A stretch of DNA of 64,000 nt, taken from NCBI RefSeq assembly GCF_030227115.1, contig NZ_JASSUA010000001.1:682001-746000 (forward strand), written 5' to 3'. A program made the translations under genes and the position numbers. Origin of the DNA: Marinobacter sp. SS13-12 (GTDB lineage: Bacteria; Pseudomonadota; Gammaproteobacteria; Pseudomonadales; Oleiphilaceae). Each line of letters begins with the position of its first letter. Within the stretch, counting starts at the first letter, position 1. Positions 23,525 through 63,740 of the stretch are shown here, piece by piece. The notes beneath the pieces were generated by a model that searched no databases, was not told where the DNA came from, and saw nothing but the letters and a program-made list of their open reading frames with translations.

Positions 23525-23634
23525 GGGGTAATTGGGGAGACCCTTCCGAAACTGTGCGGAGCCAAGGATGGCGGAGCTCAAGCCGCACAGGGACGTCTTG
23601 AGGCGTGTTTCGGAAGGGTCTCCCCAATTTCCCC
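23525..23634 (+). repeat. Inverted-arm core repeat, copy A
   Basis: The left arm 23525-23552 pairs with the right arm 23607-23634 at 27 of 28 positions. The 54-base core 23553-23606 contains GGAGCCAAGGATGGCGGAG and a nested CTCAAG...CTTGAG. The inner arm ends read GAAAC and GTTTC. Arms share no sequence with the other copies beyond these inner ends, but the core does. Core orientation is plus. It could be a structured RNA, a bidirectional terminator or a mobile element. Confidence 0.85.
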
Positions 23635-23710
23635 AAACTCCCAAGCAGTAGGTCAAAGAGGACGGTCACTTACCAAGCCAGGCCAATAACCCATTTCAGA
23701 ACGAATCAAA

Positions 23711-23750
23711 GTATACAGCTGTCTACCTCGTTATGTATACATGTGTATAC
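23711..23750. promoter_or_regulatory. Two 16-base palindromes, probable TetR operators
   Basis: GTATACAGCTGTCTAC (23711-23726) and GTATACATGTGTATAC (23735-23750) are related palindromes; the second is perfect apart from the two central bases, the first has one mismatch. Their centres are 24 bases apart, typical of two TetR dimers on one DNA face. They lie between the divergent tetR-like and monooxygenase genes. Confidence 0.7.
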
Positions 23751-23820
23751 CGCCAGACATCATGGCGAAACACACAACAACAGGCAAGGCCATATGGCCA
23801 GCGAACAGCGAGGTGGAAGT

Positions 23821-25398
23821 ATGAGTCAGAACGCACAGATCGCCATAATCGGCACCGGTTTCTCCGGCCTGGGCATGGGCATCAAACTCAAAGAAGCCGG
23901 GTACGACAACTTCGTCATCCTCGAACAGAGCGACGACGTCGGCGGTACCTGGCACGAAAACCATTACCCCGGCTGCGCCTGTGACGTCCAGTCTGCACTT
24001 TACTCCTTCTCGTTCGAACAGAACCCCAACTGGACCCGCATGTTCGCCCAGCAGAAAGAAATCCAGGCCTACCTGCGGGGCTGCGCTGAAAAATACGACC
24101 TGATGAAACATGTGCGCCTGAAAACCCACGTGGCCGGCGCCCGATTCGATGAAAAGACCCGAAGCTGGACTGTAGAAACCTGTGACAGCCCCAAACTCTG
24201 GGCCTACATGCAGAAGAAAGGCCTGAACCCCGGCGACAAACTGGACCGTAAGGACAAGGATCTGCCCGAGTTCAGCTCCTTCAAGGCGGATGTCGTCGTT
24301 TCCGGTATGGGGGGGCTCAGCACTCCGGCCTACCCCAATATCAAGGGCATTGAGACCTTCACCGGTAAAAGCTTCCACTCCCAGGATTGGGACCATAGTT
24401 ACGATTTCATAGGCAAGCGCGTTGCGGTGATCGGCACCGGCGCCTCAGCCATCCAGTTCGTCCCGGAAGTGGCCAAAGACGCTGCCCACCTGGATCTATA
24501 CCAGCGCACTCCACCATGGATTGTGCCGAAGCCAGACCGCGAGATTCGCCCGCTGGAAAGGATGATGTTCCGCAAGTTCCCACAGACCCTGAATGCTTTC
24601 CGCCAGAGCATCTACTGGATGCTCGAGGCCCGGGTGCTGGGCTTTGTAGGCAATCCACGCATCCTCAAGATCGGTGAGTTGCAGGCACGCCGCCACATCC
24701 GCAACCAGATCAAGGACAAAGAACTGCGCAGGAAGGTCACCCCCGATTTCCACTTCGGTTGCAAGCGGGTGCTGATCTCCAACAACTACTATCCAGCGCT
24801 GGCCCAGGACAACGTCGACGTGCTGACCGACGGCATCCGCGAGGTGCGCGGTAATGTGATCGTGGATAACAACGGCAATAAGCGGGAAGTGGACTGCATC
24901 ATCTACGGCACCGGCTTCAAGGCCCAGGACCCGATCCCCGCCGGCATGGTGCGCGGCCGTAACGGCCAGGACCTGCTGGATGCCTGGAAAGGCGGCGCAG
25001 AAGCCTACAAGGGCAGCACCATTGCCGGCTTCCCCAACTTCTTCATGCTGATGGGCCCCAACACCGGTCTGGGCCACAGCTCCATGGTCTACATGATCGA
25101 AAGCCAGATCCAGTACGTGCTGGATGCCCTGATGAAAATGCAGAAGCACGGCTGGAAGAGTGTGGAAGTGAAGGAAGACGCTCTGAGCAAATATAACGCC
25201 TCAATTCACGCCAAACTCGGCGACTCTGTGTGGCAGACCGGCTGCAAGAGCTGGTATGTGAATGAAAATGGCAAGAACACCACACTTTGGCCGGGCTTCA
25301 CCTGGCAGTTCCGGCAGCAGACGCGGCGGTTTGATGCGGGGCAGTATGTGTGTGAGCCAGAGGCTGTAGAAGTGGGCGAAGCCGCGCCGGCCACTTGA
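23821..25398 (+). CDS. Flavin-containing (Baeyer-Villiger-type) monooxygenase
   Basis: A 525-residue two-dinucleotide flavoprotein. The FAD-binding motif is IIGTGFSGLGMGIKLKEAG (GxGxxG), with LEQSDDVGGTWHENHYPGCA behind it. The Baeyer-Villiger fingerprint FxGxxxHxxxW is exact in FTGKSFHSQDW (about residues 180-190), and the NADPH motif is VAVIGTGASAIQFVPEVA. The enzyme inserts oxygen next to ketones or oxidises related substrates; the actual substrate is unknown, and membership of the long-chain AlmA group is not established. GGTGG precedes the ATG at 23821; an ATG at 23794 is the alternative. It is divergent from a FabR-like repressor. Confidence 0.87.
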   Translation: MSQNAQIAIIGTGFSGLGMGIKLKEAGYDNFVILEQSDDVGGTWHENHYPGCACDVQSALYSFSFEQNPNWTRMFAQQKEIQAYLRGCAEKYDLMKHVRLKTHVAGARFDEKTRSWTVETCDSPKLWAYMQKKGLNPGDKLDRKDKDLPEFSSFKADVVVSGMGGLSTPAYPNIKGIETFTGKSFHSQDWDHSYDFIGKRVAVIGTGASAIQFVPEVAKDAAHLDLYQRTPPWIVPKPDREIRPLERMMFRKFPQTLNAFRQSIYWMLEARVLGFVGNPRILKIGELQARRHIRNQIKDKELRRKVTPDFHFGCKRVLISNNYYPALAQDNVDVLTDGIREVRGNVIVDNNGNKREVDCIIYGTGFKAQDPIPAGMVRGRNGQDLLDAWKGGAEAYKGSTIAGFPNFFMLMGPNTGLGHSSMVYMIESQIQYVLDALMKMQKHGWKSVEVKEDALSKYNASIHAKLGDSVWQTGCKSWYVNENGKNTTLWPGFTWQFRQQTRRFDAGQYVCEPEAVEVGEAAPAT

Positions 25399-25453
25399 TC
25401 GTCTGCCTGGATGGAGCCATGGTTTGGTTAAGGGAATAAAAGGAGACAGTGCC

Positions 25454-26419
25454 ATGGCCAAACCAACCCTTCCTGACATATCCGGGATTCTGGAAGCGGA
25501 GCAGCGCATTCGGCCACACCTGGGCGAAACGCCACTTCTGAATGTGCCTGACCTGGATGCTGCCATGGGCCAGTCGCTTGGGCTGAAGTGCGAGAGTTTT
25601 CAGCGCACCGGCAGCTTCAAGGCCCGTGGCGCCCTGAACTGGCTGCTGACTGCCAGTGCTGATGAGCTCAGGGCCGGCCTGGTGACGGTCTCTGCCGGGA
25701 ATCACGCCATCGCCCTGGCCTGGGCGGCGGCCATGCAGGATGTGCCGCTCACGGTGGTGATGCCCGAGGGCTCCAGCCCGTTGAAGATTCGTCGTACCCG
25801 GGCGCTGGGTGCCGAGGTGATTGTGCGCGGCACAATCCAGCAGGCGGTGGCCCTGTGCCATGAATTGCGGGATGAGAAAGGGCTGACCCTGGTTCACCCC
25901 TATAACGATGTCCGCATCATGGCCGGGCAGGGCACCGTTGGGCTGGAACTGCTGCGCCAGCGCCCGGATGTGGATCGGGTACTGTGCCCCATTGGCGGGG
26001 GTGGGCTGATTTCCGGGCTCGGGCTGGCCATCAAGGCGCAGCGGCCGGAGGTGGAGCTGATTGGCGTAGAGCCGGAAGGTGCGGCCACCATGTTCCATGC
26101 CTGGCAAAAGCAGGATGCGGGCGCCAGTCTGGATTCGGTGGATACCTGGGCTGCCAGCCTGGCCCCGGCGGTGGTGGGGGACTGCACCTATGCTGCGTCC
26201 CGCCAGGTGGTGGACCGGATTGTGACGGTTACCGAGGCAGGTATCCGGGAGGCCACGCGGCGGCTGCTGACCGAGGCCAGGCTCTATGTCGAGCCCGGCG
26301 CCAGCGTAGGCCTGGCAGCGTTACTGGAAAACCAGGCTGCGCCTGAACCAGAGAAGACCACGGTTCTGATCATTACCGGCGGCAACCTGGATCCGGAACA
26401 GGTCAGTCAGTGCCTGTGA
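25454..26419 (+). CDS. Threonine/serine dehydratase family PLP enzyme
   Basis: A 321-residue fold-type II PLP enzyme. The PLP lysine is in RTGSFKARGA (SFK motif), the phosphate loop is CPIGGGGLISG, and VTVSAGNHAIALAWAA is the substrate-Ser/Thr loop. It has no C-terminal ACT domain, so it resembles catabolic or biodegradative threonine dehydratases and hydroxyaspartate dehydratases. AGGAGA precedes the ATG at 25454. It follows the monooxygenase by 55 bases but is convergent with the SDR gene; an operonic tie to the monooxygenase is possible. An 8-bp inverted repeat (25420-25427/25458-25465) brackets its ribosome-binding site. Confidence 0.85.
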   Translation: MAKPTLPDISGILEAEQRIRPHLGETPLLNVPDLDAAMGQSLGLKCESFQRTGSFKARGALNWLLTASADELRAGLVTVSAGNHAIALAWAAAMQDVPLTVVMPEGSSPLKIRRTRALGAEVIVRGTIQQAVALCHELRDEKGLTLVHPYNDVRIMAGQGTVGLELLRQRPDVDRVLCPIGGGGLISGLGLAIKAQRPEVELIGVEPEGAATMFHAWQKQDAGASLDSVDTWAASLAPAVVGDCTYAASRQVVDRIVTVTEAGIREATRRLLTEARLYVEPGASVGLAALLENQAAPEPEKTTVLIITGGNLDPEQVSQCL

Positions 26420-26437
26420 CCAATTATTGGAACACGC

Positions 26438-27211
26438 TTAACTGACCAGCGTGCCGCCATCCACGGCCAGGCATTGCCCGGTAATATGCCGCCCGGCCTC
26501 GGAGGCCAGCAGTACGGCGGCGCCCTTGAAATCTTCCTCGCCACCAAAGCGATTCAGCGGAATACGCTCCAGCATTTTGTCACCCTGGGCATCCAGCAGC
26601 CCCTGGGACATTTTCGACGGGAAGAAGCCCGGGCAGAGGGCGTTCACATTGATGTTGTGATGCCCCCACTCGGACGCCAGCGCGCGGGTGAAATTCACCA
26701 TGGCGCCCTTGCTGGTGTTGTAGGCGATGGTTTTCATGCCTTCCGGGTTGCCGGACAGGCCTGCGATGGAGGCGATGTTGATCACCTTGCCGGTGTTGCG
26801 GGGAATCATGCAGCGCTTGCCCACGGTCTGGGTGAGGAAGAAGGCGGCGTTCACGTTCAGGTTCATCACCTTCATCCAGCCTTCCGCCGGGTAGTCTTCC
26901 GCTGGCGCACCCCAGGTGGCACCGGCGTTGTTGACCAGGATGTCGATATCGCCAAGCTGGCTGACCACCTGATCCACCACCGCGGGAATGCCCTCCAGAT
27001 CGGACAGGTCCGCAGCAATGGTCACCACCTCAACGTCCTGGGCTTCGAGGTGTGTTTTGGCATCGTCCAGTTCATGCTGCTTGCGGGCGCTGATCGCAAT
27101 TCGGGCGCCCAGCTCGCCCAGAGCCTCGGCCATCTGCAGCCCGAGGCCGCGGGAGCCGCCGGTGATGAAAGCGACCTTGCCGGTCAGGTCCAGTAATTGT
27201 TTTACACTCAT
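26438..27211 (-). CDS. Short-chain dehydrogenase/reductase
   Basis: A 257-residue classical SDR: cofactor motif TGGSRGLG near residue 18, NNAG at about 93, catalytic Ser in INIASIAG, YxxxK in IAYNTSKGAM and PG near CPGFFPSKM. Terminal CLAVDGGTLVS is typical. It is likely an NAD(P)-dependent 3-hydroxyacyl or other alcohol dehydrogenase. It is last of a minus-strand acyl-CoA operon, 18 bases after the preceding acyl-CoA dehydrogenase gene, so its substrate is probably an acyl or hydroxyacyl intermediate of that pathway. Confidence 0.88.
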   Translation of the reverse strand: MSVKQLLDLTGKVAFITGGSRGLGLQMAEALGELGARIAISARKQHELDDAKTHLEAQDVEVVTIAADLSDLEGIPAVVDQVVSQLGDIDILVNNAGATWGAPAEDYPAEGWMKVMNLNVNAAFFLTQTVGKRCMIPRNTGKVINIASIAGLSGNPEGMKTIAYNTSKGAMVNFTRALASEWGHHNINVNALCPGFFPSKMSQGLLDAQGDKMLERIPLNRFGGEEDFKGAAVLLASEAGRHITGQCLAVDGGTLVS

Positions 27212-27229
27212 GGCTCTCTCCTTGTTGGT

Positions 27230-28378
27230 TCAGGCGGTCCTGGCCAGCAGGCCGTCGCTGACCTGTGCCAGGTGATGATCGGCATCGCCGAACAGCAGGT
27301 TGATCAGGGTCAGGCGCTTGAACAGGTGAGCGGCGAACATTTCGTCGGTCACGCCCATACCGCCGTGTAGCTGCACCCCTTGCTGTCCCACATAACGCGC
27401 GGCCTGCCCGACCAGGGTCTTGGCCATGGAGATGGCGTCCCGGCGGCTGGCGCGGTCATCGGAGTCCGCTTCGCTGGCAGCCAGGATGGCCATGGTTCTG
27501 GCTTGTTCGGTCTGGATGAACATGTCTGCCATGCGGTGCTGCAATACCTGGAATTTGCCGATGGGTACCCCGAACTGCTTGCGGGTCTTGATGTACTCAA
27601 GGGTAGCAGCGTTCATGGCTTCCATGGCACCAACCGCTTCCGCGCAAAGGGCGGCAATGCCCAGATCCACGGCTTTTTCGATGGCCGGGAAAGCCTCATC
27701 AATGGTGCCAATCAGGTTGTCGGCGCTGACGATGACGTTGCTGAAGCTGATTTCGGCGGTACGGTGGCCATCGTGGGTGGCGAAGTCCTCCACTTTGACG
27801 CCTTTGGCGCTGCTGTCCATCAGGAACAGGGACAGGCCGGATTCATCGTTCACGTTGCCACTGGTGCGCGCGGATACAATCAACTGGTTGGCCTGGCCGC
27901 CATGGAGCACAGCGGTTTTCTGGCCGCTGATCTGGAAATGATCGCCATCCTTGCGGGCGGTCGTCTGCACCTGGCTCAGGTTGTAGCGGGCGCCCGGCTC
28001 GAAGTGAGCGAGGGCCAGAAGCCTTTCGCCGCTGGCAATGCCGGGAAGGATGTCCGCTTTCTGGGCATCGTTCCCGGCATCCCGGATCAGCCCGCCGGCG
28101 AGAACCACTGTGGCCAGATAGGGTTCCACCACCAGGCCACGGCCAAAGTTTTCCATCACCACCATGGTGTCGACGGCGTTGCCGCCCAGCCCGTCGTAGT
28201 CTTCCGGAAAGCTGAAACCAAGCAGGCCCATATCGGCGAAATTCGACCAGGTCGCCTTGTCGATGCCTGCTCCGGAACTGATAATCTCCCCGCGCTTTTC
28301 AAAGCCGTACTCGTTGGTTACGAAGCGGCGCAGGGAATCGTTCAGCATTTGCTGTTCTTCGGTCAGATCAAAATTCAT
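27230..28378 (-). CDS. Acyl-CoA dehydrogenase (PimD-like small subunit)
   Basis: A 382-residue flavoprotein. It begins FDLTEEQQMLNDSLRRFVTN, has the FAD-contact stretch TRKQFGVPIGKFQVLQHRMA, and ends with QLHGGMGVTDE. The sequence style matches pimeloyl-CoA dehydrogenase small subunit PimD rather than typical short-chain enzymes. It partners the next gene, another acyl-CoA dehydrogenase resembling PimC; such pairs form heteromers in dicarboxylate or ring degradation. GGAGAG precedes its start. The usual catalytic Glu position (QxxGGxGxxxE-type) is kept as GGMGVTDE. Confidence 0.85.
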   Translation of the reverse strand: MNFDLTEEQQMLNDSLRRFVTNEYGFEKRGEIISSGAGIDKATWSNFADMGLLGFSFPEDYDGLGGNAVDTMVVMENFGRGLVVEPYLATVVLAGGLIRDAGNDAQKADILPGIASGERLLALAHFEPGARYNLSQVQTTARKDGDHFQISGQKTAVLHGGQANQLIVSARTSGNVNDESGLSLFLMDSSAKGVKVEDFATHDGHRTAEISFSNVIVSADNLIGTIDEAFPAIEKAVDLGIAALCAEAVGAMEAMNAATLEYIKTRKQFGVPIGKFQVLQHRMADMFIQTEQARTMAILAASEADSDDRASRRDAISMAKTLVGQAARYVGQQGVQLHGGMGVTDEMFAAHLFKRLTLINLLFGDADHHLAQVSDGLLARTA

Positions 28379-28413
28379 AGACGTCTCTCCAAACTTCCAA
28401 AGCTGATGGCTCT

Positions 28414-29601
28414 TTACAGACCAAGCACGAGTTGGGCAATGATATTGCGCTGGATCTCGTTGGACCCGCCGAAGATCGACAGCTTGCGCATGTTGAAGTA
28501 ATCGCCGGCAGACGGCGTGGCATCGATAGAACCCGCACGTGGCCCGTTGTAATCCAGCTCCAGCGCTTCCGGAATGTGCGCAATGGCATCCTGGCCGCCC
28601 GCTTCCATCAACATCTCGAACAGCTGCTGACCGATTTCGGTGCCGCGGATTTTCAGGATCGACGCCTGGGGGCCGGGACCACGCTTGTCGGTGAGCACCC
28701 GCAAAACGGTCAGCTCAAGAGCACGCAGCTCGGCGTCCAGCTGCGCCAGCCGGTCACGGAAACGGGTGTTCTCAATCAGTGGCCGCTGGCCGTCCTGTTC
28801 CTGGTACGCCACCTCTTTCAGGCGCTTCATCAAGGCTTTCCACTGCCCCACGTTGGCGAGGCCGGTGCGCTCATGGCCCAGCAGGAACTTGGCGTAGGTC
28901 CAGCCCTGATTCTCCTCACCAATCAGGTTCCCGGCAGGCACTTTCACATTGTCGAAGTAGACCTCGTTAATCTCATGCTCACCGTCCAGCATGATGATAG
29001 GGCGTACTTCGATGCCCGGGGTGTTCATATCAATCAGCAGGAACGAAATGCCCTGCTGTGGTTTTCCCTCGGTGCTGGTCCGCACCAGACAGAAGATCCA
29101 GTCGGCGTGCTGACCGAGCGTGGTCCAGGTTTTCTGGCCGTTGACCACGTAGTGATCGCCTTCGAGTTTCGCACTGGTGCGCAGAGAGGCCAGATCCGAA
29201 CCGGCGCCGGGTTCAGAATAGCCCTGGCACCACCAGTCTTCGCCACTGAGGATGCCCGGCAGGAAGCGCTGTTTCTGTTCATCGCTACCAAACGTCATGA
29301 TCACGGGTGCAACCATGCGCAGCCCGAAATCCAGCTGGCGGGGCGCACCGGAAAGGGCACATTCTTCCTCAAAGATTATCTGCTGAATCGGATCCCATCC
29401 GGTCCCGCCAAATTCTTTTGGCCATGTGGATGCACCCCAGCCCTTATCAAACAGAATCTTCTGCCAGCGTTCGGTCATCGCTTTGTCCGGGCGCAGTCGC
29501 TTCTGGACCCGTTCGCGAATGTCGTCTGGCAGGTTGTCTTCAAGAAACTGGCGAACTTCAGCGCGGAACGCCTCTTGTTCGGGGGTGTAATTCAGGTCCA
29601 T
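28414..29601 (-). CDS. Acyl-CoA dehydrogenase (PimC-like large subunit)
   Basis: A 395-residue flavoprotein starting MDLNYTPEQEAFRAEVRQFL. Features are GWGASTWPKEFGGTGWDPIQ (substrate-binding side), SEPGAGSDLASLRTSAKLEG (FAD motif), and FGGSNEIQRNIIAQLVLGL at the end, the C-terminal acyl-CoA dehydrogenase signature. The close neighbour of PimC of the Rhodopseudomonas pim operon is a good guess. The ATG at 29601 gives the family start with AGGTG just upstream; the frame is open to 29853 through the repeat elements but that extension is spurious. It is followed by the PimD-like gene 35 bases on. Confidence 0.85.
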   Translation of the reverse strand: MDLNYTPEQEAFRAEVRQFLEDNLPDDIRERVQKRLRPDKAMTERWQKILFDKGWGASTWPKEFGGTGWDPIQQIIFEEECALSGAPRQLDFGLRMVAPVIMTFGSDEQKQRFLPGILSGEDWWCQGYSEPGAGSDLASLRTSAKLEGDHYVVNGQKTWTTLGQHADWIFCLVRTSTEGKPQQGISFLLIDMNTPGIEVRPIIMLDGEHEINEVYFDNVKVPAGNLIGEENQGWTYAKFLLGHERTGLANVGQWKALMKRLKEVAYQEQDGQRPLIENTRFRDRLAQLDAELRALELTVLRVLTDKRGPGPQASILKIRGTEIGQQLFEMLMEAGGQDAIAHIPEALELDYNGPRAGSIDATPSAGDYFNMRKLSIFGGSNEIQRNIIAQLVLGL

Positions 29602-29699
29602 TTTGCACCTCTTGTCTGGTGGCTGAGGTTGACGGTTTTGACTTCTGAGTTGCCTGTTGGTTTTTAATGCCGGGCCTATAAACTCTGGGGTGGCGCCGA

Positions 29700-29798
29700 A
29701 TGGGTATCCCCTTTCAAAACACGCTCCTTCGGCCCATCCTTGGGGCGCTTGGACTCCGCCATCCATGGCTCCGTACAGTTTTGAAAGGGGATACCCAT
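29700..29798 (-). repeat. Inverted-arm core repeat, copy B
   Basis: Arms 29700-29720 and 29778-29798 pair perfectly over 21 bases. The 57-base core, in reverse orientation, contains GGAGCCATGGATGGCGGAG exactly. Inner arm ends are CAAAAC/GTTTTG. The copy lies 98 bases ahead of the PimC-like start codon and faces copy C. Confidence 0.88.
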
Positions 29799-29901
29799 CC
29801 GACGCTTCGAGTCTGTTCGTGCCTGCTTTTGCACTTGGCCCTGGGCAATGCATGACTTGCGTTCAGAGTCTGCGCAGGTTTGACCTTGCACAAAGCTCGG
29901 G

Positions 29902-30014
29902 GCGGCTGGCCGGTAGGGGTGTCCAAAAACGTGCGGAGCCATGGATGGCGGAGCTCGAGCGTCACATGGACGTGCCGAAGGAGCGTGTTTTGGACACCCC
30001 TACCGGCCAGCCGC
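29902..30014 (+). repeat. Inverted-arm core repeat, copy C
   Basis: Arms 29902-29930 and 29987-30014 pair perfectly over 28 bases except for one extra A in the left arm. The 56-base core contains GGAGCCATGGATGGCGGAG. The right arm ends 14 bases before the thiolase stop codon, so transcripts leaving thiolase would form the long hairpin at once. Confidence 0.88.
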
Positions 30015-30027
30015 TTCTCCCCAGGCT

Positions 30028-31209
30028 TTAGGCAACCTCAAACAACCCGGCAGCACCCATACCCGTACCGACGCACATGGTAACGACGACGTATTTAACG
30101 CCACGGCGCTTGCCTTCGATCAGGGCGTGGCCGACCAGGCGGGAGCCGGTGGTGCCGTAGGGGTGGCCGACGGCAATGGCGCCGCCGTTGACGTTCAGGC
30201 GGTCCATCGGGATGCCCAGTTTGCGCTGGCAGTAGAGCACCTGAACGGCGAAGGCTTCGTTGAGTTCCCACAGGCCGATGTCGTCAACCGTCAGGCCGGC
30301 CCGCTTGAGCAGCTTGGGAACGGCGAATACCGGACCAATGCCCATTTCGTCGGGCTCACAACCGGCAACGGCGAAACCACGGAAGATACCCAGCGGGGTG
30401 GCACCGCGCTGTTCGGCCACCTTGCTGTCCATCAGGACACAGGCCGAAGCACCGTCGGAGAACTGGCTGGCGTTGCCGGCGGTGACTACGCCGCCTTCCT
30501 TCGCGGAGCGGATTTTGCTGACGCCTTCCAGGTTGGTGTCCGGGCGGATCCCTTCATCCTGGCTGACGGTGACTTCCTGGCTGCTGAGCTGGCCGGTGGC
30601 CTTGTCGGCGACGCCCATGGTGGTGGTGATGGGCACGATTTCATCGTCGAACTTACCGTCTTCGCGGGCCTTGGCGGCCAGGGTCTGACTGCGGACGCCG
30701 TATTCGTCCATGTCTTCTTTCTTGATGCCGTAGCGCTTGGCTACGGTTTCGGCGGTGTCCAGCATGGACCAGTACAGCTCCGGCTTGTTCTTCGCCAGCC
30801 AGGGTTCCATGAAGTAGTTCTGGTTGACGTTGGCCTGGACGGTGGAGATGGATTCCACGCCGCCGGCGACCATCACCGGTACCCGGTCCACGGCAATGTG
30901 GTGGGCCGCCATGGCGATGGCCTGCAGGCCCGACGAGCAGAAACGGTTGATGGTGGCGCCGGCCACGGAGACCGGCAGGCCGGCACGGATGGCGCCCATG
31001 CGGGCGACGTCGTTACCGGTGGAGCCTTCGGGCAGGGCGCAGCCCATCAGCACATCTTCAATTTCGTTGGGGTCGACTTTCGAGCGCTCGACCGCGTGCT
31101 GGATGGCGTGGCCCGCCAAAGTAGCACCGTGGGTCATGTTCAGGCCGCCGCGCCAGGATTTGGCCAGGGGCGTGCGGGCAGTGGATACGATGACAACATC
31201 ATTGGACAT
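30028..31209 (-). CDS. Acetyl-CoA acyltransferase (thiolase)
   Basis: A 393-residue degradative thiolase. The acylated Cys is in [16 protein letters not shown] (about residue 90), and the second catalytic pair is in [19 protein letters not shown] and [17 protein letters not shown] (His and Cys). It cleaves 3-ketoacyl-CoA with CoA to acetyl-CoA and a shortened acyl-CoA, in the cytosol. In order it follows the multifunctional hydratase/dehydrogenase gene by 30 bases, as PimB follows PimF in the pim cluster. A role in dicarboxylyl-CoA chain shortening is inferred. Confidence 0.9.
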
Positions 31210-34954: not shown

Positions 34955-34958
34955 CCGT

Positions 34959-41252: not shown

Positions 41253-41295
41253 AGGATTCCCCTCGAACTCTTAGATATCCAGCTTCGGAGCATTC

Positions 41296-41401
41296 GCCGG
41301 GCGGGTAGGCCTCTCCGAAACACGCCTCAAGACGTCCCTGTTCGGCTCGGGCTCCGCCATCCATGGCTCCGCACGGTTTCGGAGAGGCCTACCCGCCCGG
41401 C
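41296..41401 (-). repeat. Inverted-arm core repeat, copy D
   Basis: Arms 41296-41321 and 41376-41401 pair perfectly over 26 bases. The 54-base core, in reverse orientation, contains GGAGCCATGGATGGCGGAG exactly. Inner arm ends are GAAAC/GTTTC. It lies in the gap between the divergent DMT transporter and LysR-type genes, 43 bases ahead of the transporter start. Confidence 0.9.
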
Positions 41402-41486
41402 TCCCTCAACTTTGTGATGGCATTCTATGCCTGTGCTAATATCCGATAAAATGATCTTTACTCCATCGGTATTAGAAAAGTAGATA

Positions 41487-56255: not shown

Positions 56256-57135
56256 AGCCTGCCGCAAACACCAGGCCCAGCACGATGGGCATCACCACAA
56301 TGCTGCCGAGGTTGCTGATCAGAACCAGTGACGCAACTTTTTCTGGCTCCTGCTGGTATTGTTCCGCCAACATGTAGTTCAGCACGGCGGATGGCATGGC
56401 GGCAAAGACCCAGAGGGCGGCCACCTGCAGGCCGGGGAGATCGAGTATCGCAATCATCGGCCAGGCCAGGATCAGCCCGGAGGCGGGGCAGGCAATGGCG
56501 CCGAGGATGCCCAGTTTCCAGTCGCCGAAATCCACATCCAGCATGCGCACCCCGAGGGTAAACAGCATCAGGGGGATACAGACACCGCCAAGCATGTTCA
56601 GGGTTTCCAGCAACCACTGGGGCATGGGTACGCCGCCGAAATTGACGGCAAGGCCGGCGATACTCGCCATAATAACGGGCAGGCGAAGCCTTCTGATGAT
56701 GGAGGTGTGCGGATCGAGCATATAGATGCCCACGGTAAAGTGCAGCAGCATCTCCACAACAAACAGCACAACGGCCGCCGGCAGGGCTGCCTCGCCGAAC
56801 GCCAACACCAGTATCGGGATACCCATGTTGCCGGAGTTGTTGAACATCATCGGCGGCAGGAAAGTTTTCAGATTCAGGTTCAGGACCCTGGCCACAGGGT
56901 AGAGGACAATGCCTGAGCCCAGAACCACAACCGTAGCCGCCAGCGCCAGGCTGGTGTATTCCTGCAGCGGTGCCTGCTGGTCTGCCAACACCGCAAACAC
57001 CAGCATGGGCACAAACAGCTCCATGTTAAGGGTGTTCAGGCCCTGGATATCGGGGGTGCGGTAGCGACCGTAAACCGCACCACAGCCGGCAATCAGGAAT
57101 ACCGGCAACATCGTGGACAGGATCTGGGCAAGCAT
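56248..57135 (-). CDS. AEC family (auxin efflux carrier-like) transporter
   Basis: A 295-residue protein with ~10 helices and two inverted halves (TMLPVFLIAGCGAVYGRYRT; LMLFTLGVRMLDVDF; VLNYMLAEQYQQEPEKVASL). AEC proteins move malonate, malate or other organic acids, or solutes unknown. It overlaps the prenyltransferase gene by eight bases, suggesting coupled translation. Confidence 0.87.
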   Translation of the reverse strand: MLAQILSTMLPVFLIAGCGAVYGRYRTPDIQGLNTLNMELFVPMLVFAVLADQQAPLQEYTSLALAATVVVLGSGIVLYPVARVLNLNLKTFLPPMMFNNSGNMGIPILVLAFGEAALPAAVVLFVVEMLLHFTVGIYMLDPHTSIIRRLRLPVIMASIAGLAVNFGGVPMPQWLLETLNMLGGVCIPLMLFTLGVRMLDVDFGDWKLGILGAIACPASGLILAWPMIAILDLPGLQVAALWVFAAMPSAVLNYMLAEQYQQEPEKVASLVLISNLGSIVVMPIVLGLVFAAGYV

Positions 57136-57281
57136 TCAAAGGCTCCGAATACAAATCGGGATGAGCAGTTAATCCGTTAGGTTCGCAAGTATTGGCGGTG
57201 CCAGGCAAGCAAAACCTGTGTCTTTGCGACCAAAGACGGACCCGGCGGTTGCGGCTGTTATCACTCCTGCCCCAGAATGAC

Positions 57282-57293
57282 GTCGATATCGAC
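57282..57293. promoter_or_regulatory. Palindrome ahead of the PatB-type gene
   Basis: GTCGATATCGAC is a perfect 12-base palindrome, 37 bases upstream of the GTG start at 57331. It is placed where a repressor could block a promoter; there is no adjacent regulator gene, so this is tentative. A second hairpin, GTCTTTG/CAAAGAC (57220-57237), lies further upstream. Confidence 0.3.
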
Positions 57294-57330
57294 TACTCTG
57301 ACCTCAACACCCTAACAACGGAGGGCTTTC

Positions 57331-58512
57331 GTGCCTGACTCTTTCGACCGACACCTTCAGCGGGAGAATACCTGCTCGGTAAAATTCGATGCCCGCAAGG
57401 CAGTGTTCGGCCGCGAGGATGTTATTCCGCTCTGGGTGGCGGACATGGATTTTGCGGCACCGGCGGCGGTCACGCAAGCTCTGGAGGAGCGGGCGAGGCA
57501 CCCGGTGTACGGTTATACACTGTTCCCGGAAAGCCTCTACACCTCCATTATTGACTGGTTCCGGAGCCGCCATGGCTGGACCATCGAGCGGGACTGGTTA
57601 GTGATGGCTCCGGGAGTGGTTCCTTCCCTCCATGCTGCGGCACTGGCGTTTGCAAAGGAAGGCGAGGGCGTGATTATCCAGCCGCCGGTCTATCCGCCCT
57701 TTTTCAGCGCCATTCGAAAAACCGGCCGGGTAGTGATCGAGAATCCGCTGGAGCAGGTGGATGGACTATATCAAATGAATCTTGGACACCTGGAGGCCTG
57801 CGCGGCACGGGAAGATGCCAGGGTGCTATTGCTGTGTTCACCCCATAATCCGGTGGGCCGTGTATGGACCGAAAGTGAGCTAACGGCGGTCCTGGCGATT
57901 GCCCGGCGGCATAACCTGATAGTGCTGTCGGATGAGATTCACTGTGACCTGACCTATCCCGACAAGCCTGCTCACCAGGTACTGGCTCGCCTGGCCGGGG
58001 AGGAGGACGCCCTGGTTACCGCTGTAGCGCCCAGCAAAACCTTCAACATGCCCGGTCTGGGGCTGTCGGCACTGGTGGTGGCCAATGCCGAGCATCGCAA
58101 GGCATTGAAAGAGGGTTTCGATGCCATGCACATGAACCAGTGCAACCCGTTCAGCATCGCCGGATTTGAAGCCGGTTACCGCCACGGAGGCCAGTGGCTC
58201 GATGAACTCATGGTCTACCTGCAAGGCAATCGTGACTTCGTGATGGACTACGTTGAGCAGCACTTGCCCGCCATTCAGGTGACCGAACCGGAGGGCACCT
58301 ACCTGTTATGGCTGGATTGCCGTGCTCTGGAGATGGATGATTCAGAGCTGAAGCGATTCTTCGTGCATCAGGCCGGCATCGGCATGAACCCGGGCATTAC
58401 CTTCGGGGAAGCGGGGCGTGGATTCATGCGGATGAACATTGGTTGCCCTCGGCAGGTATTGCAGACGGCTCTGGAACAAATCCGGCAGGCGATGGCGTCC
58501 GTGTCCGGTTAA
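57331..58512 (+). CDS. PatB/MalY-type cystathionine beta-lyase
   Basis: A 393-residue fold-type I PLP enzyme. The start is DRHLQRENTCSVKFDARKAV then LWVADMDFAAPAAVTQALEE, diagnostic of PatB/MalY C-S lyases. The PLP lysine is in APSKTFNMPGLGLSAL; substrate-binding HNPVGRVW and Asp in LSDEIHCDLTY are present. It cleaves cystathionine to homocysteine, pyruvate and ammonia; MalY in E. coli also acts as a regulator, which is not implied here. The start is GTG with CGGAGG upstream. It overlaps the convergent 58509 gene by four bases. Confidence 0.88.
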   Translation: MPDSFDRHLQRENTCSVKFDARKAVFGREDVIPLWVADMDFAAPAAVTQALEERARHPVYGYTLFPESLYTSIIDWFRSRHGWTIERDWLVMAPGVVPSLHAAALAFAKEGEGVIIQPPVYPPFFSAIRKTGRVVIENPLEQVDGLYQMNLGHLEACAAREDARVLLLCSPHNPVGRVWTESELTAVLAIARRHNLIVLSDEIHCDLTYPDKPAHQVLARLAGEEDALVTAVAPSKTFNMPGLGLSALVVANAEHRKALKEGFDAMHMNQCNPFSIAGFEAGYRHGGQWLDELMVYLQGNRDFVMDYVEQHLPAIQVTEPEGTYLLWLDCRALEMDDSELKRFFVHQAGIGMNPGITFGEAGRGFMRMNIGCPRQVLQTALEQIRQAMASVSG

Positions 58513-59057
58513 TCCCCGCTAGCCGGTTCGCTCCTGCAGGGATGGTCAACCGGCTGCCAGTGGGGAGGCTGACTCATGCCCGGCATCTGGCCATTGCTGG
58601 GACGTATGGCGCGATAGGCCTGGCCTTCATGGATGGCCACCTGACCGACGGTGTAGCTGGCGCCAAAGCTCCAGGGCCCGGTTTCATCACAGGCCTGCCT
58701 GGTTTTATTGCGGGTATCCACCGCGGGTTCCTGCGGATCCCGGCCCCGTGCCCGCGGTTGTTGAGGATCATCCTTCCTCATGCTGTCGGCATGGGGGCTG
58801 TCTTCCCTTTGGTGGCAGTCCGGTGCGGATTCCAGCTTTTTCCACTCGAAATCCGCCCCTGGCGTTTTGCCTTCGTGGTGTTGGCGGGATTCGTACCATT
58901 GGCCCTTATGAAACACGGCTGAGCCAGGAGGGTAATAGCGGCTCGGGACCCAGGTGTTTTCTTCCGGGTCACAGGGGGCGGCAGAAACCACCGTGCTGAT
59001 TGCCGCGAACACCATTGCGGCCTTCCATTTCAAGACTCTTGCCAAGCGATTATCCAT
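58509..59057 (-). CDS. Secreted protein with two carbohydrate-binding (CBM5/12-like) modules
   Basis: A 182-residue exported protein with a signal peptide to about residue 26. Two similar modules can be seen: WVPSRYYPPGSAVFHKGQWY (about residues 36-55) and WSFGASYTVGQVAIHEGQAY (about 128-147), each with the W...Y..G..V...G..Y/W pattern of chitin-binding type-3 domains. They are separated by a polar, disordered, Arg/Asp/Gln-rich linker. It has no catalytic domain, so it probably adheres to chitin or another polymer. GbpA-type assignment is not justified. Confidence 0.75.
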   Translation of the reverse strand: MDNRLARVLKWKAAMVFAAISTVVSAAPCDPEENTWVPSRYYPPGSAVFHKGQWYESRQHHEGKTPGADFEWKKLESAPDCHQREDSPHADSMRKDDPQQPRARGRDPQEPAVDTRNKTRQACDETGPWSFGASYTVGQVAIHEGQAYRAIRPSNGQMPGMSQPPHWQPVDHPCRSEPASGD

Positions 59058-59094
59058 GAATCCCTGCCTGTTCAGCGTTTCCGGTTTTGCATGT

Positions 59095-60018
59095 TCAGCG
59101 GTATTTGCGGCGAAGCTCGTTGGTGCGGGTCGCCAGGAAAAGCCCAGCGAGGATCAGCAGGCCACCGACAATGTGGAACAGGCCAAGCCGTTCACCGAGG
59201 AATATTCCCGCCATTACCGAAGCGAACACCGGGGTCAGGTACATGAAGATGGCCGCCCTGGCCGGGCCAATCCGGTGTACCCCGTGGTTCCAGAACCCGT
59301 AGGCCAGAATACCGGGGAAGATGGCAAAATACATCATCGGCAGAGCGGTCGACTGGTTCAGTTCAAACCCGCCCGAGAAAAACACCAGGTCCACCAGGAA
59401 AAACGGCAGTATCACCAGGGTGCCGCAGGCGATCTGCACGGTCAGGAATGTCAGCGGTGGCAGCGGTACGGCCTGGCGGCGAAGCAGCACCGAGAACAGG
59501 CCCCAACTGAACACCGCCAGCACCATGATCAGGTCGCCGGGCTGTGCCTGCAGGCCGGTAAGCACCGAAAGGTCTCCCCTGGCAACAACCGCCAGAATGC
59601 CCAGTACAGCCAGCCCGATACCCAGCGCCTGCACCGGGCGGGTGCGGTCTCCCAGCAACACCCAGGCCAGCAATGCCACCATGATGGGGATGGTGGCATT
59701 AATCAGTGCGATATTGGTGGCGCTGGTGGTCACCGCGGCAAAGTAGAGCAGTGAATTGAAGGCCGCGACGCTGAAGGTAGACAGGGCCAGTATCGACAGC
59801 CAGTACTGCCGAATCAGCTGGCGCTGACGCCATACCCCCGGCAATCCAAAGGGTAACAGAATCACCAGAGCGATCACCCAGCGCCAGAACGACATGGACA
59901 GCGGCGGAATCTCTCCCACCACGCCTTTGGCGACAACGGCGTTGCCGGCCCAGAACAATGGGGTCAGAACCAGGCCGACATAGGCCAGCCACAACGATTT
60001 GGGGGTATCTGAAGACAC
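59095..60018 (-). CDS. EamA/DMT family transporter
   Basis: A 307-residue protein with ~10 helices in two EamA repeats (LTPLFWAGNAVVAKGVVGEI at the start; YLTPVFASVMAGIFLGERLG near the end). Conserved Pro/Gly features of the family are present. It may export amino acids or other metabolites; a partner is not evident. Its start is 55 bases downstream of the AstE/AspA-like gene stop, with a nested hairpin between. Confidence 0.88.
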   Translation of the reverse strand: MSSDTPKSLWLAYVGLVLTPLFWAGNAVVAKGVVGEIPPLSMSFWRWVIALVILLPFGLPGVWRQRQLIRQYWLSILALSTFSVAAFNSLLYFAAVTTSATNIALINATIPIMVALLAWVLLGDRTRPVQALGIGLAVLGILAVVARGDLSVLTGLQAQPGDLIMVLAVFSWGLFSVLLRRQAVPLPPLTFLTVQIACGTLVILPFFLVDLVFFSGGFELNQSTALPMMYFAIFPGILAYGFWNHGVHRIGPARAAIFMYLTPVFASVMAGIFLGERLGLFHIVGGLLILAGLFLATRTNELRRKYR

Positions 60019-60024
60019 TCCGGC

Positions 60025-60071
60025 TCCTGTCAGGATTTCTGGCCCTGATGAAACTCAGGGACCCGACAGGA
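60025..60071. terminator. Nested inverted repeats after the AstE/AspA-like gene
   Basis: TCCTGTC (60025-60031) pairs with GACAGGA (60065-60071), and inside it CCCTGA (60043-60048) pairs with TCAGGG (60055-60060) around TGAAAC. Both are perfect. No T-run follows, so a 3' stabilising hairpin or weak terminator is possible. Confidence 0.45.
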
Positions 60072-60073
60072 TA

Positions 60074-61384
60074 CTACTCTCCGGGCACTTCTGCCTCCGT
60101 ACCAACGTGGTAGGCGGCAAAGCCTGCCATGACAACCTGATCCACGGCCATTCCGATAATCCGGCCATCGATTCTGGCGCGGATGGGGTGTTGTTCATTG
60201 GTAATAGGGTCTGAAACGTAACCAAGGATCTCACCTTCACCAACTTTGGCACCGAGCTTGATCTCACTGAACAGTATACCGCCGTGCTCAGCGCGTACCC
60301 ATTCCGAGTCGTAGTACACCGGCTCCGGGTCACCCCAGACGAACATCCTCGAAATCATACCTTCCTTGTCCATCAGACTGGTCAGGCTGTTGACGCCGGC
60401 TTTGATCTGGTGCTCCTGTATCCGCAGGGATTCGCCCGCCTCCATGGTGACAGCGCGGATACCGGCTTCAATCGCGGCATAGCGAAGCATGCCGGGACTG
60501 CCGGTGCTGTGGACCACGGCCATGCGGTCAAACCCGCGGGTCAGTTCGGCCACGTCAGGGTTGTTCATATCAGCCCTCAACTGGGGCAGATTGGTGCGCT
60601 TGAGCGATCCGGTGTGGATATCCACCAGCATGTCGCAGTGGCGAATCACGCTTTCGAACAGCGAATGGGCAATGCGGTCTGCCAGGCTGCCATGGGTACT
60701 GCCGGGAAAATGCCGGTTAAGGTCACGGCGATCCGGCAGGTAGCGGCTGCCTTGCTGAAAACCGGGCAGATTGACGATGGGGACCCCGACAACGCTGCCC
60801 GACAGCTTGTTCGGCTCCAGGTCGTACATGGTACGACGAATGATTTCTATACCGTTGAGTTCATCACCGTGCACCGCACCGGTCAGGCACAGGGTGGGGC
60901 CGGGCTTGGCGCCGTTAACCACCAGTACGGGGGTTGGCTGAGACAACCCGGCACCCTGGATAGCGGGTGACCAGGACAGCCGCGTGGCTGTTCCGGGAGG
61001 GACATTTGCCCCGAGCATCTCAAGGCTGGAAGCTTCTTCCTGTTGTTCAGGTTGTTTCGTTTGTTCGCTCTGATCTTCCGCTACCGGCTCTTGCGGTTCT
61101 GCTGCGTCAGCCTGTTCCGGTGCTTCTTTGGCGCTCTTTTCTTCAGCGGAAGTTTCAGCCGGAGCTGGAGCAGGTTCATTGTCCTTAGGCTCCGACGGCC
61201 GCAGGGGTTCGGAGTGCTCCACATCCTCAACACTCTCGTCTTCGGCAAGCTCTGCGACAAGGACTTCCTGTGTATCGGATTCAGCGGTTTGCTCCGCGTG
61301 GGCAGCCGGCAGGGCTACCAGGCTGCCGCAGAATGTGGAAATCAGGCCAGCGCGAAACAGATGTGTCAGCCAGCGGTACGGCAT
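60074..61384 (-). CDS. Exported succinylglutamate desuccinylase/aspartoacylase-like protein
   Basis: A 436-residue protein. Residues 1-30 are a signal peptide ending AAHAEQT; 31-115 form a Glu/Ala/Pro-rich disordered linker (SEPLRPSEPKDNEPAPAPAE). From 125 the M14-like zinc amidohydrolase domain shows LTGAVHGDELNGIEIIRRTM (HxxE zinc motif), LNRHFPG and VDIHTGSLKRTN (third zinc His), with MEAGESLRIQEHQ later. AstE and AspA are cytosolic, so an exported form with a long acidic linker is unusual. Substrate would be an N-acyl amino acid or similar amide outside the inner membrane. GAGAGG precedes the ATG at 61384. Confidence 0.82.
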   Translation of the reverse strand: MPYRWLTHLFRAGLISTFCGSLVALPAAHAEQTAESDTQEVLVAELAEDESVEDVEHSEPLRPSEPKDNEPAPAPAETSAEEKSAKEAPEQADAAEPQEPVAEDQSEQTKQPEQQEEASSLEMLGANVPPGTATRLSWSPAIQGAGLSQPTPVLVVNGAKPGPTLCLTGAVHGDELNGIEIIRRTMYDLEPNKLSGSVVGVPIVNLPGFQQGSRYLPDRRDLNRHFPGSTHGSLADRIAHSLFESVIRHCDMLVDIHTGSLKRTNLPQLRADMNNPDVAELTRGFDRMAVVHSTGSPGMLRYAAIEAGIRAVTMEAGESLRIQEHQIKAGVNSLTSLMDKEGMISRMFVWGDPEPVYYDSEWVRAEHGGILFSEIKLGAKVGEGEILGYVSDPITNEQHPIRARIDGRIIGMAVDQVVMAGFAAYHVGTEAEVPGE

Positions 61385-61604
61385 AGTTCCTCTCGGGTTG
61401 TCAGCCAGTGGGGGCCTGGCGTCCGGAATTTGTGGGACGGGACAAGGATAGAGGCCCCAAAGTTCCATGAATACGGCTGTGACAAAGGTTTAATGCCCCT
61501 TTCATGAACTCTTTGTGTATTTCCGCAAAATGGCCTATTCATGAGACTACAGGATGCCTATTACGGTTCTGTATCCGTTATACGTCTGAAAGGGAGCTCA
61601 CTCT

Positions 61605-61763
61605 ATGGATCTTTTGCGAATTCTTATTGCGATTTTGTTACCGCCGTTGGGGGTATTTTTACAAGTGGGAATCGGAAAGCACTTCTGGATCAACATTGTG
61701 TTGACCCTTCTTGGCTATATTCCGGGTATCGTCCACGCGGTGTGGATTATCGCAAAGAAATAA
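61605..61763 (+). CDS. Pmp3/YqaE family small membrane protein
   Basis: A 52-residue protein starting MDLLRILIAILLPPLGVFLQ, with two hydrophobic helices joined by HFWINIVLTLLGYIPGIVHA, the UPF0057/Pmp3 signature, and ending WIIAKK. Such peptides are stress-related inner-membrane proteins thought to affect membrane potential or cation entry. AAGGGAG lies eight bases upstream of the ATG. It is too short for usual cut-offs but clearly belongs to this family. It is convergent with the Nudix/MBL gene. Confidence 0.88.
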   Translation: MDLLRILIAILLPPLGVFLQVGIGKHFWINIVLTLLGYIPGIVHAVWIIAKK

Positions 61764-61786
61764 CATGACCCCGGGGCGGGGCCATG
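61764..61786. terminator. Hairpin between convergent Pmp3 and Nudix/MBL genes
   Basis: CATGACCCCG (61764-61773) pairs with CGGGGCCATG (61777-61786) with one mismatch and a GGG loop, immediately after the Pmp3-type stop. No T-run follows; it may serve as a weak bidirectional terminator. Confidence 0.4.
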
Positions 61787-61808
61787 ACGAAGGAGGCAAG
61801 GCCGTGGC

Positions 61809-63446
61809 TCAGGTGTGGGAAGTGGCATGCCAGATCTCGCCTTCCTTTGCTGCCCTGCCATCCCTCTCCAGCTTCAACAGATGGGCTAGCGCCGAACGGG
61901 CTGCAACACCATGGATGGCAGCCGGGACGTCGTCGTAAGCGTCCGCCGTCAACGCCTTCAGGCTTGCTGTTTTCAGGTCTTTCAGCACCCGAGCCACCTT
62001 GTGCTCCCGGGCCAACCGGTGGGTAATCAGGTAATCGATAACCGCTTCCGGGTGCCCCATCAGAAAACCGTGCGCCGGGGCAATGTAGCGTACCGGCTCG
62101 TCCAGCAGATCGTACAGGGACTCCAGGTAGGCTCCCATATCGCCATCCGGGGGATTGATCACCACCGTCGAGCCCTGCATAACGTGATCACCGGAAAACA
62201 GAAGTTCCTGCTCCATCAGCAGGTAACACAGGTGGTTGGAGGCATGGCCCGGCGTGTGAAGCACTCTCAGCGTGCCCGCGTCGGTTAAAATCGCATCTCC
62301 GTGGACCGGTTCCTCATCGGGAGCAAAGGTCGGGTCCTGGGCGGCCCCTTCCGGCGCCGGCTGACCATAAACACGGCACCCGGTCCTGGCTTTCAGCGCG
62401 ACGGTGCCGGGCGAATGGTCCTGGTGGGTGTGGGTCACCACCACCTGATCGATCGCCCCGCCGGTGATTTCCAGAATCCGTTCAATATGGGTGGCATTGT
62501 CCGGCCCCGGGTCCAGTACCGTGAATCGTTTGTGCCCCAGTATATAGGTATTGGTGCCGGGCCCGGTCATCATCCCCGGATTCGGGGCCGTCAGCCGCAC
62601 CACACCGGCTGCGACTTCCACCGGTTCACCGGGCACTATCTCCGCGCGGGTCGAGCCTTCCCCCTCTGGATCCAGCTTGGCGGCTTCGTCATACGCCGGC
62701 GCCCCAGGCTCCAGCATCACCGACTTCCCCTTCTTCACCGCCGGCCATGACTTGCTGGGATAGGGCTCGGGCGGATTGGCATGAGCGTAACGCATCACCT
62801 CGCCCGTGGTATCGAAATCGCTCAGTATCCGCAGCGTGCGGATGGTGGGCAGGCCCAGCAACCGAAGGCCACAGCGGTGATCCTCCAGTGCCTGCGCAGG
62901 GCTCAGCCAGACATGATCAATCGTCTCCACCCCGTCATGGCTCGCAAGCTGGTCCTCCGGCGCCACTGCCACGAAAAACCGGGTATCAAACCGGCGGGGC
63001 GGTCCGGGTGGCGTAATCCAGTGCCCCAGGTAGGCCAGCCGGTCCAGCGGAATCGTTAGTTTGTGCCGCTGGCACAGCTCCGCGACGGTCAATTCACCCT
63101 GGAAGAGAGCATCGCGGTCCTCATGAACCGGGTGCTTCGGAGTTACCTCCTTCCCATTCTCATCCAGCGCCAACAAAACACCGGCTTCTTCAAAACATTC
63201 CCGAACCGCAGCCAGCATAAAGTCAGCACCACCTTCATCCAGACTCATGGTCTGGCTGATGTCACTATCACCTCGCCCCACGGCATGCTGTCGCCCGCCG
63301 ATATCCTGGTCGTCTACGGATCCACCGGGGAAGACAAAAAAGCCCGGCATAAAGACCGCTTCCCAAGTGCGCTGGAGCAGCAATACTTGTAGACCCTCGG
63401 CCGTATCTTTTGTCAGAACCAGCGTTGCAGCAGGGCGAATTTCCAT
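61809..63446 (-). CDS. Fused Nudix hydrolase and metallo-beta-lactamase-fold protein
   Basis: A 545-residue fusion. Residues ~5-230 are a Nudix domain (PGFFVFPGGSVDDQD, Nudix box around AAVRECFEEAGVLL). Residues ~270-480 are a metallo-beta-lactamase fold of LACTB2/hydroxyacylglutathione-hydrolase type, with VVVTHTHQDHSPGTVALKA (HxHxDH) and LHTPGHASNHLCYLL, LLFSGDHVMQGST. The remaining part is an MBL-associated winged-helix (HKVARVLKDLKTASLKALTA). The start at 63446 gives the family N-terminus; the frame is open further into the repeat copy E. Domain roles: hydrolysis of nucleoside diphosphate-linked substrates and of a thioester or nucleic acid; combined function unknown. Confidence 0.85.
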   Translation of the reverse strand: MEIRPAATLVLTKDTAEGLQVLLLQRTWEAVFMPGFFVFPGGSVDDQDIGGRQHAVGRGDSDISQTMSLDEGGADFMLAAVRECFEEAGVLLALDENGKEVTPKHPVHEDRDALFQGELTVAELCQRHKLTIPLDRLAYLGHWITPPGPPRRFDTRFFVAVAPEDQLASHDGVETIDHVWLSPAQALEDHRCGLRLLGLPTIRTLRILSDFDTTGEVMRYAHANPPEPYPSKSWPAVKKGKSVMLEPGAPAYDEAAKLDPEGEGSTRAEIVPGEPVEVAAGVVRLTAPNPGMMTGPGTNTYILGHKRFTVLDPGPDNATHIERILEITGGAIDQVVVTHTHQDHSPGTVALKARTGCRVYGQPAPEGAAQDPTFAPDEEPVHGDAILTDAGTLRVLHTPGHASNHLCYLLMEQELLFSGDHVMQGSTVVINPPDGDMGAYLESLYDLLDEPVRYIAPAHGFLMGHPEAVIDYLITHRLAREHKVARVLKDLKTASLKALTADAYDDVPAAIHGVAARSALAHLLKLERDGRAAKEGEIWHATSHT

Positions 63447-63740
63447 AAAATGTCCGTTGTCTTTTTTTATGTAGATGCGCGTCAAAGTTTGAAGCGGAGA
63501 TTGGGAGAGCGCCTTCAAAACTGTGCGGAGCCATGGATGGCGGAGCTCAAGCGTCACAGGGATGTGCTTGAGCGTGTTTTGAAAGCGCTCTCCCAATCTC
63601 CGCCGCCCCCAAAACCCGAATGCGCCGAGGCCTGGCTACCAAGATAACCAATGTTGGACCTGTTGTCCCGGGATGAAGGCAGGCCGACAACCAAGTATCA
63701 TTGGCTTCCTCCGAAAATCTTCCCCTACAGGAACTCAACC
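63447..63740. other. Gap with repeat copy E and thioesterase upstream region
   Basis: No gene. It carries the inverted-arm element copy E (63494-63603) 47 bases ahead of the Nudix/MBL start, and then the region upstream of the thioesterase. I see no further clear signals apart from AGGAA ahead of the TTG at 63741. Confidence 0.6.
63494..63603 (+). repeat. Inverted-arm core repeat, copy E
   Basis: Arms 63494-63521 and 63576-63603 pair at 27 of 28 positions. The 54-base core contains GGAGCCATGGATGGCGGAG exactly and CTCAAGC/GCTTGAG. Inner arm ends are CAAAAC/GTTTTG. The core is plus orientation, and the copy lies between divergent genes. Confidence 0.9.

Follow-up and report, generated by a model that had tools for sequence, protein, structure and literature searches.

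What kind of sequence keeps its two arms complementary wherever it occurs while the arms themselves differ from place to place? The question is raised by five elements, A to E, in a 64,000-nucleotide (nt) stretch of the Marinobacter sp. SS13-12 genome (contig NZ_JASSUA010000001.1, positions 682,001 to 746,000; here called the window), each of which carries a shared core between two long arms. An earlier note on this DNA had suggested either a structured RNA or attenuator, or a mobile element that acquires templated arms as it inserts. We found the five to belong to a large dispersed family in which arm pairing is kept while arm sequence is not, and in which two small hairpins with A-N-GGA loops stand between the arms; on balance, we somewhat favor the view, drawn from sequence, that they represent a dispersed structured RNA that would bind a dimer of the regulator CsrA.

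The core motif, GGAGCCATGGATGGCGGAG, occurred at five sites in the window at up to three mismatches, exactly in four elements and, as the earlier note had it, with one change in A, whereas 100 shuffles averaged 0.04 sites. With element ends placed by the covariance model described below, A lies at 23525-23634 on the plus strand (arms 23525-23552 and 23607-23634; core 23553-23606; loops AAGGAT at 23564-23569 and AGGGAC at 23589-23594). B and C form an inverted pair: B, the left member, occupies 29693-29805 on the minus strand (arms 29778-29805 and 29693-29720; core 29721-29777; loops ATGGAT at 29766-29761 and AAGGAT at 29741-29736), and C, the right member, occupies 29902-30014 on the plus strand (arms 29902-29929 and 29987-30014; core 29930-29986; loops ATGGAT at 29941-29946 and ATGGAC at 29966-29971), the 96-bp spacer between them (29806-29901) being without a sigma-70-type promoter match. 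D lies at 41294-41403 on the minus strand (arms 41376-41403 and 41294-41321; core 41322-41375; loops ATGGAT at 41364-41359 and AGGGAC at 41339-41334), and E at 63494-63603 on the plus strand (arms 63494-63521 and 63576-63603; core 63522-63575; loops ATGGAT at 63533-63538 and AGGGAT at 63558-63563). All five were thus present within 7 bases of where they had first been placed, B having been drawn short by 7 bases and D by 2 at each end. Arms of ~28 bp surround a core of 54-59 bases in each, and the folding energies of -50.7 to -79 kcal/mol corresponded to single-strand z-scores of -5.5 to -9.4 relative to shuffled sequences, none of 200 shuffles equaling any of the five elements. The second half of the core, described before as common to all, is alike in A, D and E (CAGGGAYGT followed by CTTGAG) and of another type in B and C (CAAGGATGG / CATGGACGTG followed by CCGAAGGAGCG). 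The inner ends of the arms are alike, as had been observed, and the likeness extends beyond the five bases first recognized (majority consensus CCTTCCAAAAC in 43 copies). No Rfam match was obtained in the window at the gathering threshold; weak matches to MIR1858, mir-H1, mir-3179, MIR1437 and IRES_c-myc in a permissive scan reflected long stems alone and were dismissed.

Searches of this and related genomes with the core as query and with a covariance model, which the earlier note had proposed, placed the five copies in a much larger set. The core motif had 52 copies at up to two mismatches in the 4.64-Mb genome, and a covariance model built from 43 divergent copies (R1) gave 109 own-genome matches at E <= 1, 105 of them at E < 1e-11, when the best 150 of 1424 first-look candidates were scored (E-values are rough). 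The additional copies included several sub-types of the first hairpin whose stems are very unlike one another (GCATTGCCATGGATGGCAATGC, CAAAAACATGGATGTTTTTG, AATTGGCCATGGATGGCCAATT and others) and whose loops are of the same kind. The core motif was present in all 24 same-genus genomes searched for it, with 2 to 63 matches per genome at up to two mismatches, and R1 matched all 23 same-genus relatives to which it was applied with 3 to 106 matches each, the high counts being lower bounds since at most the best 106 candidates per genome were scored. Outside the genus, R1 was positive in 3 of 12 further genomes from the same order (9 to 36 matches), and among the matches listed Marinobacter accounted for 78 of the 80 named records carrying the core. 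One locus of the own genome (L314, C1:1922025-1932663) is a dense cluster of seven elements in 11 kb.

Across these copies the arms keep their length and their pairing. They were 24-33 bp long in 244 of 246 elements and 21 bp in the other two, with a mode of 28-29; this set leaves aside 17 of 263 unique core matches whose arms had fewer than 18 of 24 positions paired (chance hits and damaged copies). The arm palindrome itself was not conserved, as a mean of 10.7 of the 18 outer bases differed between copies. When 43 copies were aligned with MAFFT, 96.2% of cells were paired compared with 66.2% after shuffling, changes on both sides were seen in 27 of 28 stem pairs, and the structure outscored every slid version of itself; a model-fitted alignment of the own-genome copies (109 distinct rows, including a single reverse-strand match) gave 96.5% versus 63.4%, with both-side changes in 36 of 38 pairs. 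The small hairpins covaried in the model-fitted alignment, while hairpin I was invariant in the MAFFT alignment; the outer counted pair of hairpin II, for example, was C-G in 55 rows, U-A in 42, G-C in 2 and unpaired in 10. The loops were far more constant, A-N-GGA being found in loop I of 105 and loop II of 104 of 107 copies (strict AYGGAY in 65 and 58, respectively), and in 95 of the 104 copies measured the two GGA were separated by 23-25 nt. Two kinds of interruption were seen in the second hairpin. Eight loci (L025, L062, L102, L111, L112, L138, L153 and L238) carry an alike ~85-nt stretch (..TTATGAAGCGAAGCTTCAT.., with a GGACCC..GGG end) at the same point of its loop, which is either a longer form of the core or an insertion nested within it, and in L193 the hairpin is broken by unrelated sequence starting ..GATGGGATGAACACCTCTTG.., perhaps an insertion sequence end.

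Single loci were then compared across genomes. Besides the own genome, 38 genomes could be read across the gap holding B and C (two more with one anchor only lie outside the 38): of the 38, both elements were present in 24, one of these with an insertion in C; fusing or truncating deletions were found in 4 (L229-L232) and a remnant in 1 (L233); and 9 distant genomes had no element and a terminator-like hairpin in its place (by eye; three with a U-run). Over the 23 loci with B (own genome and 22 others), 17 of 27 arm positions showed at least two Watson-Crick types and there were 21 distinct arm pairs; for C, with 24 loci (own genome and 23 others), the corresponding figures were 19 of 27 and 20. 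In 187 same-orientation ortholog comparisons, 1273 of 1700 changed arm positions (75%) were compensated and 427 were not, and the core was identical in just 13 comparisons (20 of 258 pairs with arms that were not measurable had been dropped, and pairs are not independent). The remaining 51 of the 238 comparisons were in opposite orientation, with a mean arm identity of 15.6/28; some of these are true flips, and others probably reflect non-orthologous copies or the partner element of a pair. At individual loci, the core type of C varied among genomes while the outer arms stayed recognizable (e.g., L202 versus L203), A and its ortholog L110 had nearly the same arms with compensating changes and a second hairpin of another type (by eye), and the core of E was inverted relative to L111 between similar arms (19/28 bases). 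D was missing from the orthologous gap of L145, with an apparent remnant plus another copy in L075 (by eye), and E was missing in L068. From such comparisons it looks as if arms are inherited while cores get exchanged or flipped.

These loci bear directly on a mobile origin, in which a miniature inverted-repeat transposable element (MITE)-like element or a single-strand DNA hairpin transposon would have its arms made or chosen at insertion, for example into pre-existing palindromes. Such an element would account for the high copy number with similar cores and for a fixed inverted-pair geometry that resembles the layout of REPIN pairs, and a folding DNA strand could equally yield the mismatch bias described below. 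Yet the left arms of same-orientation orthologs shared 19.7/28 bases, compared with 13.6 for random pairs, and co-varied; none of the gaps read showed a bare palindrome; and the core of E had no match at E <= 0.001 in plasmid and phage collections. A comparison of loci with and without the element had been suggested earlier as a means of learning whether an arm pre-exists. Among the gaps read (5 of 72 candidate rows plus the A, D and E loci, all too diverged to reveal a target), one-armed shorter versions also retained a piece of the core, and the shorter B-C versions (L229-L233), which retain parts of B, C or both, look like deletions. We consider a mobile element of this kind improbable.

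Mismatches within the arms were strongly asymmetric. Read on the GGA strand, the 246 elements had 176 G·T and 15 A·C mismatches (~12:1), and the own genome had 82 and 9, respectively, in 101 copies (the 109 minus 5 with low pairing, 2 that were short and 1 without both neighbor genes). Own-genome copies without a close partner gave 71 versus 4 (82 of 87 counted), the ortholog arms gave 22 versus 4 for B and 8 versus 1 for C, and the excess was present whatever the direction of the neighboring genes. As RNA accommodates G·U pairs but not A·C pairs, selection seems to act on the folding of the GGA strand in single-stranded form. The asymmetry also bears on the possibility that DNA mechanics alone maintain arm pairing, whether by template-switch correction of quasi-palindromes or by recombination between inverted arms that copies arm onto arm. 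The high proportion of compensated ortholog positions, some apparently changed in blocks, would be expected from such processes, and the opposite core directions within similar arms and the fusing or truncating B-C deletions suggest that recombination is active there. Correction alone, however, predicts about equal numbers of G·T and A·C, so that the 12:1 ratio on the GGA strand requires folded-strand selection, and it does not address the conservation of the loops while the small stems covary; we give this explanation little credence. Compensating ortholog changes, covariation and the G·T excess together uphold two suggestions of the earlier note, that pairing rather than sequence is conserved and that a structured RNA is involved.

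A lead to the identity of the elements came from the permissive Rfam scan, in which C scored 31.8 bits and B 28.9 bits against RF01731 (TwoAYGGAY), C being aligned over the full length of the model (1-168). The earlier note had known of no named family with this layout; the layout fits RF01731, at scores that in this genome stay below the Rfam cut-off. In 369 genomes of the class, own genome included, 31 had an RF01731 match at E <= 0.01 and 15 had one above the cut-off, and 17 class genomes searched deeper had 1 to 46 matches each among the matches listed. In the reverse direction, R1 recovered 4 of the 15 RF01731 loci above the cut-off at E < 0.001 (E < 1e-11 for three of them), as well as 3 loci below the cut-off. 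Three RF01731-type elements from three regions of two other genomes folded into a bulged outer stem round two hairpins, and when 20 inverted-pair regions from other genera were searched for long arms free of interruptions, one short arm pair was all that emerged. The two groups share a poorly conserved outer stem round two A-N-GGA-Y hairpins, with covariation here over 28 stem pairs and the hairpins, and the genomes with above-cut-off matches are also multi-copy with head-outward inverted pairs; the Marinobacter elements differ in their frequent ARGGAY loops, long and near-unbroken outer stem, ~100 copies and sub-cut-off score. Rfam labels RF01731 Cis-reg, whereas the table of the original report lists TwoAYGGAY as probably an RNA, probably not cis-regulatory, in gamma-Proteobacteria (Weinberg et al. 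2010, PMC2864571). Binding of CsrA has been proposed for TwoAYGGAY from motif matches in a later paper (PMC4333381), and among the papers listed we found none tying TwoAYGGAY to Marinobacter or to high copy number. Judged by model alignment, the elements are best described as a TwoAYGGAY-like family with some homology links, and not as a member by the Rfam cut-off.

The placement of the copies relative to genes was consistent with the intergenic location first described, as just 2 of 109 overlapped a gene called by a crude gene caller. The same caller gave neighbor genes, relative to the element, as ++ for 40, +- for 28, -- for 23 and -+ for 17 of 108 copies; divergent gaps held the fewest copies in this count, of which a genome-wide gap background is not part. 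An upstream stop codon lay within 60 nt in 21 of the 40 ++ contexts, and the stop of the downstream gene lay within 60 nt in 19 of the 28 +- contexts. Such proximity to gene ends, together with the strong folding and the terminator-like hairpins in the nine genomes without a B-C trace, would suit a 3'-end RNA hairpin unrelated to CsrA, acting as an exonuclease barrier like repetitive extragenic palindromic (REP) sequences or as an RNase III site, with a core serving another RNA-binding protein. That explanation leaves the constant A-N-GGA loops on wholly changed hairpin stems without a reason, and it is countered by the mixed orientation to neighbor genes and by canonical terminators being equally common at gene ends that have an element and at those that lack one (12/88 versus 12/90, by the crude gene caller and a crude terminator rule); we rate it as unlikely. 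No support was obtained for the attenuator suggested in the earlier note, given the same terminator frequencies and a TTTT within 15 nt past the element in just 2 of 109 copies. Replacement of terminators by elements, an idea prompted by the nine B-C gaps, was dismissed on these frequencies, and no terminator-like site was found at B-C in the own genome. In the flanks of the 246 elements, ACTCC recurred 1-4 nt past the right arm (32 times) and 14-18 nt ahead of the left arm (22 times).

Close pairs had a nearly fixed geometry, 44 of 45 counted overall being inverted with heads outward: 11 of 11 in the own genome, all 10 in the Marinobacter genomes G006, G007 and G023 (3 of 5 fully listed genomes, G008 and G015 being without a pair within 600 bases by eye) and 23 of 24 in other genera among the 150 RF01731 matches listed. 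The spacer of 6 of the 11 own-genome pairs (C1:1922025, 2009763, 2019092 and 2382753, C3:129530 and C6:98797) contained a REPIN-like repeat (GTAGGTCGGATTAG..; GTAGGTCGGATTAGCG..CGTAATCCGACA, a double palindrome), which also supplied the commonest k-mers upstream of the elements, and in L002 and L018 a REPIN-related sequence stood in place of the left arm. REP sequences and REPINs consist of a short conserved palindrome mobilized by a RAYT transposase. The elements described here resemble them in being dispersed, intergenic, hairpin-forming and partly in inverted pairs near gene ends, and differ in that the loop region and not the palindrome sequence is conserved. We found no earlier report of this copy number, of head-outward inverted pairing or of core types that switch or flip within locus-specific stems.

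The loops suggest what the GGA strand might bind. An ANGGAX hexaloop placed directly on a stem is described as a high-affinity Csr/Rsm (RsmE) site (PMC4005645), and PMC7652899 gives the CsrA consensus from systematic evolution of ligands by exponential enrichment (SELEX) as RUACARGGAUGU, with one dimer bridging sites 10-63 nt apart. The elements have the sequence features of a CsrA/RsmA site, namely an A-N-GGA-X loop on a stem and two such sites within 10-63 nt, and the genome has one csrA gene (92.6 bits). No match to CsrB (RF00018) was found in the genome at E <= 1, and RsmZ (RF00166) gave two matches, the best with 21.6 of 44 bits, while 8 of 14 control genomes matched too; these two Rfam models may simply fail to reach this lineage, and no genome-wide search was made for RsmY or other sponge families. 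We infer that the elements are transcribed, with the GGA strand as the RNA strand, and that a locus-specific stem of mostly 26-30 bp would present two small A-N-GGA-Y hexaloop hairpins, mostly 23-25 nt apart, which could occupy both sites of one CsrA/RsmA dimer. The long stem may serve as a rigid, nuclease-resistant holder, maintained at each locus by compensating mutation, and the ~100 copies, many just past gene ends, might act as a distributed CsrA sink and/or as local CsrA handles in 3' untranslated regions. Recombination would exchange cores between copies or flip a core within its palindromic arms, and would in this way account for the occurrence of similar cores between unrelated arms.

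Several observations weigh against this reading of the elements as CsrA-binding RNA. Their orientation to neighbor genes is mixed, and TATAAT, TTGACA and GacA-box-like hexamers showed no positional enrichment in the 100 nt upstream of the 109 copies. The G·T excess was weak in close-pair copies (11 versus 5; 20 of 22 counted) and persisted in unpaired copies antisense to both neighbor genes (14 versus 2), where read-through would not explain it; the asymmetry points to RNA, with folded single-stranded DNA as an alternative that it would also fit. As for the kinship with TwoAYGGAY, none of the 47 own-genome RF01731 matches at E <= 10 passed the gathering cut-off (best 42.6, cut-off 43 bits), R1 missed 11 of the 15 above-cut-off RF01731 loci at E < 0.001 (one was at E = 0.019), and the second loop of the RF01731-type element L371 lacks GGA. 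The stems of hairpin I are long, and known Csr sponges are dedicated genes with more sites per RNA.

The CsrA-binding reading nevertheless carries consequences for how these bacteria might regulate CsrA. GGA-loop hairpins bind CsrA/RsmA in CsrB/CsrC and RsmX/Y/Z, whereas in the present elements the motif alone is found, at two sites per copy, in ~100 dispersed copies and without a recognized promoter. Extrapolating from these features, we tentatively propose, as an idea more likely wrong than right, that Marinobacter has no CsrB/RsmZ-type master sponge and that CsrA would instead be titrated in a decentralized manner by ~200 loops at ~100 loci, each with a private stem, with core cassettes that circulate, switch type and flip by recombination, and with head-outward pairs giving a sense copy from either side. 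TwoAYGGAY was a candidate of 2010 whose function was not known then, and its relative here is a dispersed family with up to at least 100 copies per genome, in a culturable genus available for direct tests of the proposed CsrA binding. The family also offers a natural case in which pairing is kept across ~100 stem sequences, which allows selection on folding to be quantified at each site. Should CsrA bind the elements, interspersed repeats and not one small RNA gene would buffer a global regulator, and the dynamics of the repeats would be tied to regulation.

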